Source of the DNA: Bifidobacterium adolescentis ATCC 15703
GTDB lineage: Bacteria; Actinomycetota; Actinomycetes; Actinomycetales; Bifidobacteriaceae
Reading direction: 5' to 3'
Assembly (NCBI RefSeq): GCF_000010425.1
Contig: NC_008618.1
Span: 1,357,946-1,421,945 of the forward strand
Length of the DNA stretch: 64,000 nucleotides
Shown: positions 11,346 to 15,606 of the stretch, piece after piece
How positions within the stretch are numbered: the stretch's first letter is position 1
Layout of the letters: every line of letters starts with the position of its first letter
Notes under the pieces: model-generated
Seen by the model: the letters and a program-made list of their open reading frames with translations, nothing else
Databases searched by the model: none
Told to the model about the DNA's origin: nothing
Program-made: the position numbers and the translations under genes

Positions 11346-12830
11346 TCAGTTTTGCGTCCAACGCTCCGCCAGAGCGCTCAATCCGGACGCGTGGGATCCT
11401 TTCAGCAACACCACTGTACCCTCATGGTCGGTCGCAAGCCGGGTGACCATTCGGTCGGCCTGTTCGGCATCATGCGCCCATTGCACCATCGTCGGGTCGG
11501 CGGCAACCGCCTTGCCGCCCTGCGCCATGGCCTCGGCAAGCGCGTCCAACGCCTCGTCGGAAGTACTGCCGACCGTCACAAGCGCGTCCGCACCGCCCTC
11601 GACGGCGTATCTGCCGACGTCCTCATGCAGGCGATGCTCATCCGGTCCGAGCTCCAGCATGGCTCCGAGAACCGCTATTCTGAACGGCTGCTGCTCGGCG
11701 CCGGCATGCCAGCGCGACAGGCCATCGAGTCCGGCCTTCATGGAATCGGGGTTGGCGTTGAACGAATCGTCGATCAGTGTGAACGACGTTTCGGGCTTGG
11801 TGACGGTGGACACCGCCATGCGATGCGGGCTGATGCTCGTCACGTCGGACAGGCCGGAGGCCACAGCGTCAATCGGCATGCCCAACGTCATCGCCACCGT
11901 GGCTGCGGCAAGCGCGTTCATGACGTTGTGCTGTCCGCAGATGCCGAGCGTGACGTTGGCGTGCCGGCCTGTCTTGTCTTCCAGTACGAATGACGGATGG
12001 TCGAGATCGTCGCAGCGCACGTCGAGCGCGGTCGTGTCCAGTTGCGCGTCTTCTTTCTGCGGCAGGCCGAACCACAGCACATCGGCCGGAGCGATGGCGC
12101 TCATCGCGGCCACATGTTCGTCGTTGGCGTTGAGGATGGTCAGGCCGCCCGGCACCAGTCCGCGTACGATTTCCGATTTGGCTTGGGCGATGCGTTCCGC
12201 AGAGCCGAATTCTCCCAGATGCGCCACGCCCACCTTGAGCACCACGGCGATGTCCGGCGGAACCAGGGAGGTGAGGTTGGCGATTTCGCCCACGTGATTG
12301 GCGCCCATTTCCGCCACCAGGAAACGCGTGCCGGCGTTCACCTTGAGCGACGTCAGCGGCAGGCCGATCTCATTGTTGAACGATCCGACCGGAGCGACGG
12401 TGTCGCCCATTTTGGACAGCAGCGATTTGAGCAGATCCTTGGTGGTGGTTTTGCCGACAGAACCGGTGATGCCGATGACGGTGAACGGCGATTCCAGCGC
12501 GCGCCGACGCTCGATATTATGCTTGGCGAGCGCTCCCAACGCCTTGACGGTGTTTTCTACGACGATCTGCGGCACCTGCGCGCCCGCGATTTCGTGGTCG
12601 ACCAGTGCGGCCACAGCCCCCTGCGCGCCGACCTTCGGCACGAAATCATGACCGTCGACGCGTTCGCCGGCAATCGCCACGAAAACGGATCCCGGCACGA
12701 TCTGGCGCGAATCCGTGAAGGCGCTGATGGCCACCGGTTCGTCGGTCGGCACGGTCGTCGGCATCAACCGTCCATCAACCGCCTGCGCGATCTCCGTCAG
12801 GCTCATCGGCATCATGGTCGGGCTGCTCAC
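11346..12830 (-). CDS. murF: UDP-MurNAc-tripeptide--D-alanyl-D-alanine ligase MurF
   Basis: 494-residue Mur ligase that adds D-Ala-D-Ala to complete the pentapeptide. The N-terminal domain reads ISAFTDSRQIVPGSVFVAIAGERVDGHDF. The P-loop GITGSVGKTTTKD lies at about 120-132. The central domain has VAEMGANHVGEI and VLKVGVAHLGEFGS, and the C-terminal domain has LIDDSFNANPDSMKAGLD. All ATP and metal residues are intact, in contrast to the MurE-like gene immediately upstream. It overlaps nothing; a 60-bp spacer with a hairpin separates it from that gene. Confidence 0.96.
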   Translation of the reverse strand: MSSPTMMPMSLTEIAQAVDGRLMPTTVPTDEPVAISAFTDSRQIVPGSVFVAIAGERVDGHDFVPKVGAQGAVAALVDHEIAGAQVPQIVVENTVKALGALAKHNIERRRALESPFTVIGITGSVGKTTTKDLLKSLLSKMGDTVAPVGSFNNEIGLPLTSLKVNAGTRFLVAEMGANHVGEIANLTSLVPPDIAVVLKVGVAHLGEFGSAERIAQAKSEIVRGLVPGGLTILNANDEHVAAMSAIAPADVLWFGLPQKEDAQLDTTALDVRCDDLDHPSFVLEDKTGRHANVTLGICGQHNVMNALAAATVAMTLGMPIDAVASGLSDVTSISPHRMAVSTVTKPETSFTLIDDSFNANPDSMKAGLDGLSRWHAGAEQQPFRIAVLGAMLELGPDEHRLHEDVGRYAVEGGADALVTVGSTSDEALDALAEAMAQGGKAVAADPTMVQWAHDAEQADRMVTRLATDHEGTVVLLKGSHASGLSALAERWTQN

Positions 12831-12890: not shown

Positions 12891-13769
12891 TTAGTTCAGG
12901 TCACGCGAGACGCGTAACGCGCTTTTGATGTTGGCTTTCCTCACGCCGGCGGCCAGCACCATGGCGATGGACAGGGACAGCGAACGGCTGTCCGTCTGGC
13001 CGTATGCCGTCGCGGCCTGCGCCGCAAGCAGGTCGGATTCCTGGGTTCGTCCCGCGATGCGGGTCTGTTTGCCGACCGCGCATCCGAATTTTGCGACGAG
13101 TTTCGCAACCTCGGCATCGCTCAAACCATTGTCATCGCAGGCAAGCACATCGACGCTGACCGATTGCAACGCGTCCTCACGCAGGGTCTCTTCATCCAAC
13201 GCGAGGATCACAGCGGCTGCGCCGTCTTCGGCGCACACCGCCATGGTACGTTGCACATCGATGGCCGACAGAGGATATTCCAGATTGAGGAAGCGTTCCA
13301 ATGACTGTGAATCGGACGAGCTGATCACGCCGACGGGGTTGCCCAGCATGTGCAGGAAATCCGCGAGGTTCCTCACTTCGGATTCCACGATCTCCCTGTT
13401 CTTCCCCGTGATGGCGAACACGGCCAATGCGTCGGACGGATTGCCGGCCATGTCGCTCACCAGTTTGCCGAGCTGTCCCATGGTGGGTTCGGCGTAGATG
13501 AGCGGAATCTGGATGTCGTCGGTTTGACCGCGCAGCGCATGGGGCACGATCGCGCCATATGCTCCCTGCTCCTGAGCCTGCGACAACTGGTGCACGTCCA
13601 CATCGGCGGACGGGACGAACAGTGCGCCGGGACGCACCGATTCGACATCATCCGCGATGGAAGTGATCGTCACTTCAGCCGCCGACGTCGGATCAAGATC
13701 GAAACCGTATCGGCTGGCAAGCAGCCCTAAAGTCATTCGTCTGTTCATGGATTCGCTGACCGCGCTCAC
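12891..13769 (-). CDS. Degenerate MurE-like protein in the murE slot of the dcw cluster
   Basis: 292-residue protein encoded between ftsI and murF, exactly where murE lies in other bacteria. The first 120 residues follow the MurE/MurF N-terminal domain: ITSIADDVESVRPGALFVPSADVDVHQ, AYGAIVPHAL, and LGKLVSDMAGNPSDALAVFAITG. Where a Mur ligase has GTNGKTT it reads GKNREIV (about residues 122-128), so the ATP phosphate loop is gone. The remaining 165 residues keep a loose central-domain pattern, but the C-terminal ligase domain with its substrate signature is missing; real MurE enzymes are about 480-520 residues. It probably cannot ligate. It could be a structural or regulatory pseudo-enzyme or a decaying paralogue. 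A catalytic murE would have to be elsewhere in the genome (inference). Confidence 0.75.
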   Translation of the reverse strand: MSAVSESMNRRMTLGLLASRYGFDLDPTSAAEVTITSIADDVESVRPGALFVPSADVDVHQLSQAQEQGAYGAIVPHALRGQTDDIQIPLIYAEPTMGQLGKLVSDMAGNPSDALAVFAITGKNREIVESEVRNLADFLHMLGNPVGVISSSDSQSLERFLNLEYPLSAIDVQRTMAVCAEDGAAAVILALDEETLREDALQSVSVDVLACDDNGLSDAEVAKLVAKFGCAVGKQTRIAGRTQESDLLAAQAATAYGQTDSRSLSLSIAMVLAAGVRKANIKSALRVSRDLN

Positions 13770-13803: not shown

Positions 13804-15606
13804 TCACCAATTCACCGGAATAGCATCCGTGCGAGGTGAAGACGCCGGCACTTCATACTTCTGCATAAGGAATTCACCAATCTCCGCGGTGACAGGACCC
13901 GCCGTCAAACCGCCGAAGCTGCCTTGGGGGTCTTTGAGCACCACGGTGATGACGAAGCGTGGATTATCCGCGGGAATGATCGTCGAGTAATCGCTGATGA
14001 TCGAGGTCAGTTGGCCGTTCGCTCCGGCGACTTCTGCTGTGCCTGATTTCGCCGCCATACGATAGCCGTCGACCTTCACGAAAGTGTTGTAGTGTTCAGC
14101 GGACGATTCCATGGCGTTGAGCATCTGGCTCGCCACGGATTCGTCGATGACGCGTGTCGCCTCGCCCTTGGACTGCTGCTCTTCGACATGCCCCGCGGTG
14201 TCGGTGATGGACTTGATGATGCGTTGCGGCTTTTTGACGCCCTTGTTGGCTATCACCGAAATCGCGTTGGTCAGCTGCATGACGTTCACCGTGTACCCTT
14301 GACCGAACAGCACGGTGTTGCGGGTTCGCCTGTCCCAGCTATCCGAGGGGTGCAGCACGCCTTCGGATTCGCCTGGCAGGTTCAGTCCTGTGGCCTGTCC
14401 GATACCGAATTTGCTGATGAAGTTGTACCGCTGCTCGTTGGTCATCTTGTCTCCGGCAATGACCATGCCAACGTTCGACGACTGTTCGAGGATGCCGGCG
14501 AGCGTCCAATGTTCGTTGCCATGGTCCACCGCGTCCTTATAGGTCTGTCCTTCCACGGTCACCGTGTTCGGTACCGTGAATTTGTCATCGATCTTGTGCA
14601 ATCCCAGTTGCAGCATGCCCGACATGGCCAGCACCTTGCCGATGGAGCCAGGTTCGAAGGTCTCGCTCACCGCCCGGGAGGCGCCCATCTTCGCCTGGTC
14701 GCTTCCGGCCTCGGTCGTATCGCTGTCCGCCAAAGCGAGGATGTCGCCCGACTGCACGTCCTGGACCATGGCGATGCCCCAAGCGGAATGGTATTTGTTT
14801 TCGCTGTCGCTCAGCACTTTCTCGGTGTACCATTGCACATCCCGGTCGATGGTGAGGGTGACGTCGGATCCGTTGACCGCGTCTTTAGATTCGGTCATGG
14901 TTCCGGGGATTTCGACGCCGCTGTTGCCCTGTTGGTACACCTGGTAGCCGTCACGGCCCGTCAATGTCTTGTTTTCCATCTGCTCGATGCCGGCCACGCC
15001 CTTGCCGTCGGCGTCGACACCACCCAATAGCGAGCCCATCAAAGTGCCGTTGGAGTACAGACGTTCGTTGCTTAATTCCGCGTAGACGATGCCGCCGAGG
15101 TTCAGCTTGGAGATTTTACGCTTGACCGCAGGCGTCACGTCCTTCTTCAATACCACGTATTGCCCGCTGATCGACAGTTTGGCGCCCAGTTCCGTGGCGT
15201 CCATGCCCAATACGGGGGCCAGCAGACGAGCCACGGCTGCGGCTCCCGTCACGCCGACCGGCTTGCCGTTGATCTGGTGGCAGTTGCTGCCGGTCTGTTT
15301 GGTGCAGGTGGTCGGTATGAACGCCTGCGCCTGTTCGGGGTTGCCGATGATGGTGTAGCGTTCGACGCTTTGCGCGAGAATCGCGCCATTGGTATCCATG
15401 ATCTTGCCGCGTCGAGCCTTCAACGTCACGGTGGTGGTACGGCTTTGCGCCGCGGCCTGCGCCATGCCTTTGCCGTTGACCAGTTGAATATTGGCAAGTT
15501 GGATAAGGCAGGTGGTGCCCATCAGCGCCAGAACGACGCCGATGGCCATGGTTTTCGTCAACAGGTTCTTGTGGAAGAACGTGTAGATCCTGCGGATAGG
15601 GTTCAC
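13804..15606 (-). CDS. ftsI: Septal peptidoglycan transpeptidase FtsI (class B PBP)
   Basis: 600-residue class B penicillin-binding protein that cross-links septal peptidoglycan with FtsW. One membrane anchor (about residues 17-40) is followed by the PBP dimerisation domain starting RRGKIMDTNGAILAQS. The transpeptidase domain has the SxxK motif at Ser321 (FEPGSIGKV), SSN at 376-378 (EQSSNVG) and KSGTAE at 520-525. All three active-site motifs are intact. Its start overlaps the upstream ftsL-like gene by 4 bp (ATGA). No PASTA domain is seen, so it is FtsI-type rather than a PASTA PBP. Confidence 0.95.
   Translation of the reverse strand: MNPIRRIYTFFHKNLLTKTMAIGVVLALMGTTCLIQLANIQLVNGKGMAQAAAQSRTTTVTLKARRGKIMDTNGAILAQSVERYTIIGNPEQAQAFIPTTCTKQTGSNCHQINGKPVGVTGAAAVARLLAPVLGMDATELGAKLSISGQYVVLKKDVTPAVKRKISKLNLGGIVYAELSNERLYSNGTLMGSLLGGVDADGKGVAGIEQMENKTLTGRDGYQVYQQGNSGVEIPGTMTESKDAVNGSDVTLTIDRDVQWYTEKVLSDSENKYHSAWGIAMVQDVQSGDILALADSDTTEAGSDQAKMGASRAVSETFEPGSIGKVLAMSGMLQLGLHKIDDKFTVPNTVTVEGQTYKDAVDHGNEHWTLAGILEQSSNVGMVIAGDKMTNEQRYNFISKFGIGQATGLNLPGESEGVLHPSDSWDRRTRNTVLFGQGYTVNVMQLTNAISVIANKGVKKPQRIIKSITDTAGHVEEQQSKGEATRVIDESVASQMLNAMESSAEHYNTFVKVDGYRMAAKSGTAEVAGANGQLTSIISDYSTIIPADNPRFVITVVLKDPQGSFGGLTAGPVTAEIGEFLMQKYEVPASSPRTDAIPVNW

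Follow-up and report, generated by a model that had tools for sequence, protein, structure and literature searches.

Contacts between the divisome and the Mur ligases of the dcw operon have long been suspected from the conserved order of the genes. As described in the text of PMC3605390, a protein-fragment-complementation assay on M. tuberculosis proteins detected signals of Mur ligases with FtsZ, FtsW, FtsQ, Wag31, SepF and PknA/B, but not of Mur ligases with one another; a 2024 correction of that paper concerns images of its Fig 5 (PMC10965061). A precedent for contact between two Mur ligases is provided by MurE-MurF fusions (8F5D; the Bordetella protein of PMC6420597), in which a MurE unit is joined to MurF. 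The short protein described here matches both halves of 8F5D weakly in sequence but, unlike pseudo-MurE, both units of the Bordetella protein are catalytically active, according to the text of PMC6420597.

The gene that we call pseudo-MurE occupies the operon position of actinobacterial dcw MurE (2XJA), is predicted to share its N-terminal and middle-domain fold, and has in these proteins its best HMM relatives of those compared. It differs from them in having neither the P-loop nor the C-terminal domain, and in its degenerate TTP, EVSSH and DHLD loops. With MurE2 (NF001129) it has a distant Mur-ligase kinship in common; however, MurE2 is full-length, has an intact GTKGKTT and is encoded outside the dcw operon, and the short proteins score a median of 2.4 bits with its HMM. 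The MurE fold is also shared with PAP11 (8R6S chain Q; Z 22.4), the MurE-like subunit of the plastid RNA polymerase, but PAP11 is a plant protein with a longer chain and forms part of an RNA polymerase complex. Our literature searches found no description of the pseudo-MurE gene. Term look-ups in the texts of PMC5514069, PMC3605390, PMC6420597, PMC5746004 and PMC11707648 did not find it named, and the main text of the first of these, a TraDIS paper, names neither murE nor ftsI.

The gene in its operon and its predicted fold

The window is a stretch of 64,000 nucleotides from Bifidobacterium adolescentis ATCC 15703 (NC_008618.1, positions 1,357,946 to 1,421,945). An earlier note, made from its letters, had described an open, inactive-looking MurE paralogue between ftsI and murF; the coordinates and the open frame were borne out (12891-13769, minus strand, GTG start, 292 aa). 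The features to which we refer are as follows.

12891..13769, minus: pseudo-MurE gene between ftsI and murF, encoding 292 aa from a GTG start
13434..13739, minus: predicted MurE N-terminal-domain part, residues about 11-112 (AlphaFold2 model against MurE 2xja; G48, G69, P89)
12894..13433, minus: predicted remodelled, shortened MurE middle-domain part, residues about 113-292, followed by no C-terminal domain (model alignment)
13386..13406, minus: former P-loop GKNREIV, residues 122-128 (GKT/GKS in 0/101 relatives)
13335..13355, minus: new conserved motif LHMLGNP, residues 139-145, consensus LHxLGNP (residue counts in relatives)
13221..13229, minus: EDG, residues 181-183, conserved at the sheet edge that also bears LHxLGNP (residue counts in relatives)
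13804..15606, minus: ftsI, upstream neighbour (Pfam Transpeptidase, E 1.3e-51)
11346..12830, minus: murF, downstream neighbour (TIGR01143, 390 bits; cut-off 288.6)

A Shine-Dalgarno-like stretch, GGAGGGG, lies 7 nt upstream of the GTG. Around pseudo-MurE the dcw genes run mraZ, mraW, ftsL, ftsI, then murF, mraY, murD and ftsW, with ftsI and murF named by profile match and the remainder by their reading frames. Only 34 bp separate the gene from ftsI and 60 bp separate it from murF, too little for a lost ligase domain. No promoter-like sites were found on the pseudo-MurE strand between 11200 and 17800. Terminator-like hits numbered 10, against 5.9 (sd 2.2) in shuffles, and on this strand fell only at 17339-17320 and at 13892-13874, the latter inside ftsI.

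Comparisons were made with 101 relatives, the window genome included, of the 139 genomes with a match (38 were left out); their start codons were chosen by nearness to the aligned start. Gene neighbours were named at the best 80 of 103 loci, which come from Bifidobacterium, three Gardnerella and one Bifidobacteriaceae bacterium. Full MurE proteins of the taxonomic order (hereafter order MurE) were taken from 30 loci, the best-scoring of 147 matching genomes, and MurE2 and other family MurE from 30 family loci plus L001; one 402-aa pick (L059) was excluded from the MurE2 HMM and alignment.

With the NCBIfam MurE model TIGR01085, pseudo-MurE scored 33.1 bits (E 2.9e-8; cut-off 257.3) over profile positions 2-181 of 472. 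Models NF001123, NF001124, NF001126, NF008896 and NF010628 also matched, each far below its own cut-off, and MurE models in general covered the protein only over roughly their first 180-200 positions, again far below cut-off. A Pfam scan of the protein found no Mur domain, Mur_ligase_C included. Profile searching, proposed as a check in the earlier note, thus recovers MurE kinship at a sub-cut-off score, and we take this kinship to be real but remote.

An AlphaFold2 model built with 81 sequences was confident (pLDDT 90.0, pTM 0.87). It aligned best with 2xja chain A, the MurE of M. tuberculosis (Z 22.7 over 280 aligned residues, rmsd 4.2), followed by plant PAP11 (Z 22.4) and by entries named MurF (Z 13.1-13.9). 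Structural prediction, also suggested beforehand, hence gives a confident match to the N-terminal and middle fold of MurE. The 2xja chain has 502 residues, of which the alignment takes in entry residues 26-373; the middle domain would hence be largely retained, though altered, and the C-terminal domain alone lost. The earlier claim that the protein keeps the MurE N-terminal domain is correct as far as it goes, but this alignment shows the protein to hold most of the middle domain as well. The claimed absence of the C-terminal ligase domain agrees with an alignment that stops at 2xja residue 373, with the lack of Mur_ligase_C in Pfam and with the 60-bp gap. The model therefore indicates an intact N-terminal fold, an altered middle domain and no C-terminal domain. 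Residues G48, G69 and P89 are present in 101/101 short proteins and in 30/30 order MurE.

Loss of the catalytic sites

The P-loop, TTP, SSH and DHLD residues of MurE are catalytic. GKNREIV does stand at the P-loop position, as first noted, and GKT or GKS occurs there in none of the 101 relatives; it is likewise absent there from all 80 named loci, while GKT is found in 30/30 order MurE and 22/22 MurE2. A GKT/GKS triplet does occur off the P-loop in 6/101 relatives, by chance, and the first G of the P-loop is retained in 89 of the 101. In a joint alignment, the short proteins have mixed letters or gaps at the columns that read GTNGKTT, TTP, EVSSH and DHLD in order MurE, apart from the first G of the P-loop and the P of TTP. 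In the 30 order MurE, the second T of TTP, the E and H of EVSSH and the H of DHLD are invariant or nearly so. Among these 101 proteins, the TTP letters are kept in 14 (first T), 5 (second T) and 100 (P) cases; those of EVSSH in 1 (E), 8 (first S), 15 (second S) and 1 (H); and those of DHLD in 21 (D), 2 (H) and 1 (last D). A frameshift was considered and rejected, since neither another frame nor the 60-bp gap before murF hides a GKT loop or a ligase domain, and 101/101 relatives are short (280-414 aa).

Losses extend to the N-terminal domain. In the numbering of the window protein, S at position 42 is found in 28/30 order MurE and 2/101 short proteins, D at 49 in 29/30 and 0/101, G at 58 in 30/30 and 2/101, and F at 61 in 28/30 and 0/101; presumably these letters serve UDP-sugar binding in MurE. 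Such counts bear on a possible role as a sensor or carrier, in which the N-terminal domain would still bind the UDP-MurNAc-peptide precursor. In the model the fold of this domain is indeed intact, with G48, G69 and P89 invariant, but the loss of near-invariant letters at 42, 49, 58 and 61, together with most of the TT of TTP and of the SSH loop, makes precursor binding improbable in our estimate. Judged by sequence, the description "inactive-looking" was apt, since the P-loop, TTP, E-SSH and DHLD letters are mostly lost across the relatives, and the catalytic residues appear to be lost family-wide, as for a pseudoenzyme.

Distribution, selection and descent

Relatives of pseudo-MurE were found in 139 of 151 genomes of the family, and in 130/130 of those of high quality (completeness 90% or more, contamination 5% or less). 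All 101 relatives read consist of a single open frame of 280-414 aa, and the order ftsI-short gene-murF holds at 80/80 named loci. Even the small genomes (0.6-0.9 Mb) of genus code g13 have a match in 7/7 cases. In the one of these whose neighbourhood was inspected (L083 of G012, about 0.8 Mb), ftsL and ftsI are unrecognised between mraW and pseudo-MurE; murF still adjoins.

The 12 family genomes with no match are all below 90% completeness. In six of them (G004, G009, G019, G020, G032 and G044) ftsI directly abuts murF, so that the absence of the gene is real there and the operon can work without it. In G031 and G043 about 1.4 kb before murF holds neither the short gene nor a recognised ftsI; in G003, G008 and G014 murF alone is recognised at the locus; and G040 has no murF match either, so that the stretch may be missing from its assembly. 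In a MraY tree, from which G003, G008, G014, G019 and G040 were left out, the seven gene-less genomes form one sister group (84/84) of 18 carriers (100/100), and no losses within the carrier clade are shown. A separate tree recovered 23 short proteins as monophyletic (100/100). This monophyly, taken with the carrier clade, fits a single origin in that clade. The survey of conservation thus has two sides: the gene is present throughout the carrier clade, but it is not universal, since a sister clade of the same family is without it. Decay, which the earlier note would have recognised by absence or frameshift in most relatives, is not what was found, with 139/151 family genomes carrying the gene and 101/101 of those read being open.

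We also compared rates of substitution. Over 20 disjoint close pairs (short-protein identity at least 80%; Nei-Gojobori), pooled dN/dS was 0.127 for pseudo-MurE, 0.178 for murF, 0.109 for ftsI and 0.057 for mraY, on a basis that was picked after the all-pairs values were seen and that favours a "constrained" reading. By segment of pseudo-MurE, the pooled values were 0.135 (residues 1-113), 0.084 (114-209), 0.188 (210-262) and 0.078 (263-292). Over 1022 pairs with short-gene dS of 0.05-1.2, mostly distant, the medians were 0.50 for the short gene, 0.41 for ftsI, 0.35 for murF, 0.28 for murD, 0.25 for mraW and 0.18 for mraY; here the short gene is the least constrained of the six, and its order relative to murF is opposite to that in the close pairs. 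We set this second result aside because many of the pairs are distant and G+C-rich with compressed dS. Every value, from close or distant pairs, is below 1. The median pairwise identity of the short protein is 48%, against 60% for murF and ftsI, and 20 columns are invariant across 47 diverse members.

Pseudo-MurE is kept under purifying selection, and the dN/dS check envisaged for the short gene gave a pooled value (0.127 over the 20 close pairs) below that of murF (0.178). If the gene were only a relic in decay, or a spacer that couples the translation of murF, this would suit a tight operon, a gene shorter than MurE, a divergence faster than that of the neighbours and an all-pairs dN/dS that is the highest of six genes. 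However, the close-pair value, the 101/101 open frames and the 20 invariant columns in 47 members speak against decay, a spacer would conserve no residues, and six family genomes do without the gene; of the alternatives considered we find this one the hardest to credit.

As to descent, the full MurE of the order lies between ftsI and murF at 22/30 loci, between ftsI and mraY at 5/30 and before murF at a contig start at 1/30, with no neighbour recognised at 2/30. At the five loci with mraY as the next recognised gene after murE (L165, L171, L175, L177 and L178), no murF was recognised in between; it may lie elsewhere or be very divergent. An HMM of the short family gave 33-64 bits with order MurE and 1-33 bits with MurE2, ranges that touch at 33.2 and 33.3. 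In reverse, the order-MurE HMM outscored the MurE2 HMM for 101/101 short proteins (median 42 vs 2.4 bits). Of the 3333 positions that 33 discriminating columns give in the short proteins, 767 have the letter of order MurE and 286 that of MurE2; order-MurE letters outnumber MurE2 letters in 89/101 proteins and do not in 12/101. A tree of 199 columns, made from 23 of the 101 short proteins, 30 order MurE, 12 MurE2 and 8 other family MurE, placed the short proteins with order MurE weakly (90/71), and their grouping with MurE2 was not rejected (p-AU 0.275). Descent from the native dcw MurE is thus favoured by position, HMM scores and signature residues, while the tree alone leaves it unsettled. 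"Paralogue", the earlier term, is imprecise, because the gene sits where most of the order relatives checked carry a full murE, and it is the full MurE of the genome that belongs to a different lineage.

The conserved face, the full MurE and a proposed role

The short proteins have acquired a conserved motif of their own. Within LHxLGNP, the first L and the H, G, N and P are present in 101/101 and the second L in 100/101, and in the window protein plus the 80 named loci all are invariant except H (80/81). In EDG, the E and G are found in 101/101 and the D in 94/101. The new invariants across the 101 are L139, H140, G143, N144, P145, E181, G183, D207, T34, T36, Y71 and F118; in the window plus the 80 named loci, H140 and T36 have one exception each.

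ATP and substrate bind at the strand C-ends in the Mur-ligase middle-domain fold. In the short proteins, conservation of the middle-domain sheet is higher at the strand N-ends (3.16 bits) than at the C-ends (1.75 bits; p 1.4e-5), whereas the 30 order MurE show the reverse (2.61 vs 3.77 bits; p 5e-7) and MurE2 runs in the same direction as order MurE (3.48 vs 4.17 bits). The two windows, of 28 positions each on strands taken from the model, were hand-picked after the conserved residues had been seen, so that the p-values are descriptive. Such a switch of face suggests that the substrate side has been released from selection and that the opposite edge is now the constrained one. On the predicted structure, this is what would be expected of a partner-binding protein without chemistry, although the conserved edge may instead serve self-association or folding. 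A new enzymatic activity that does without the P-loop could draw on the polar residues H140, N144, E181, D182 and D207, which are invariant or nearly so; but these are placed at strand N-ends, which is not where this fold usually takes its ligands, and no family match points to other chemistry, so that we give this idea very little weight.

The earlier note had inferred that the true MurE would be encoded elsewhere. Indeed, the sole MurE of the genome above the TIGR01085 cut-off lies at C1:1344217-1345632, 12.3 kb before the first base of the window. This full MurE, the MurE2 of the genome, reaches 935 bits with NF001129 (cut-off 762), which bears out the prediction.

These results are consistent with a model in which another MurE, encoded elsewhere, would have taken over catalysis; the operon MurE, stripped of its ATP site, catalytic loops and ligase domain, would then have been retained as a non-catalytic protein module. 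The conserved edge of the middle-domain sheet, opposite the dead active site, would dock a partner; candidates are other proteins encoded in the operon, for example FtsI, FtsL, FtsW or MurF, and a regulatory kinase. In this way the protein would keep contacts that the former operon MurE had made, without its chemistry. That the gene encodes a retained non-catalytic protein, as had been proposed, is very probable, given purifying selection and a new set of invariant residues. For the whole proposal, in which pseudo-MurE arose from the operon MurE after the takeover and most likely docks a cell-wall or division partner, we estimate a probability of roughly 0.6. By analogy, the mycobacterial contacts of Mur ligases with division proteins may be regarded as the closest precedent for a binding role.

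If the proposal is correct, pseudo-MurE would separate the role of an operon Mur ligase as an enzyme from its role as a protein. Should the dead copy prove to be needed, contacts of dcw Mur ligases with the divisome would be under selection in their own right, and their study would not be confounded by a loss of peptidoglycan precursor. There is also a warning for annotation and for the choice of drug targets, in that the gene at the bifidobacterial murE position is not the enzyme.

Inactive paralogues tune active enzymes in other enzyme families. The main rival to docking of a division partner is accordingly a regulatory subunit that acts by direct binding to MurE2 or MurF, tuning the activity of that ligase. 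It would suit the adjacency of murF and pseudo-MurE at 80/80 named loci, and the finding that, by score alone, the gene is present in 135/136 genomes whose best MurE scores <290 bits and in 1/9 with a MurE of >350 bits. This co-occurrence is, however, confounded by kinship, as the gene-less genomes are one sister group in the MraY tree. Moreover, one genome, G034 (L039 / L077), keeps pseudo-MurE together with a full MurE of 441 bits that is unlike the usual MurE2, so that the short gene appears to outlive a change of working MurE. Precedents point both ways: MurE and MurF form an active fusion in Bordetella (text of PMC6420597), but the mycobacterial Mur ligases lacked mutual interaction in one assay (text of PMC3605390). 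We consider a regulatory subunit rather unlikely, though the most serious of the alternatives.

Returning to the docking model, a fuller version is that in the ancestor of the core Bifidobacteriaceae stem-peptide synthesis passed to another MurE, one probably of foreign origin and of the lysine or ornithine type, and that release of the substrate side of the old MurE, with the opposite face becoming invariant, made it a fixed adaptor of the division and cell-wall complex throughout the carrier clade. Pseudo-MurE would then be a Mur-ligase pseudoenzyme of bacteria whose contacts have outlasted its chemistry. We hold this version tentatively, at somewhat less than an even chance.

Bifidobacterial peptidoglycan contains lysine or ornithine, and the arginine of DNPR is an indicator of the amino-acid type of a MurE. 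This arginine is found in 0/22 MurE2, which carry an intact GTKGKTT P-loop, and in 29/30 order MurE. In addition, a lysine-ligase model gives the MurE2 of the window genome 369 bits, more than the 261 bits of the general MurE model. From these two observations and the known peptidoglycan we infer that MurE2 is probably of the lysine or ornithine type; it is probably foreign as well. A point against the assignment is that its best model, NF001129, carries the name 2,6-diaminopimelate ligase. Finally, nine genomes of the genus of the window (G079, G106, G110, G119, G121, G135, G138, G142 and G144) contain two full-length MurE-type matches in tandem, 206-282 bp apart, for example G138:C1:1699097-1702152, which perhaps represent two amino-acid specificities.
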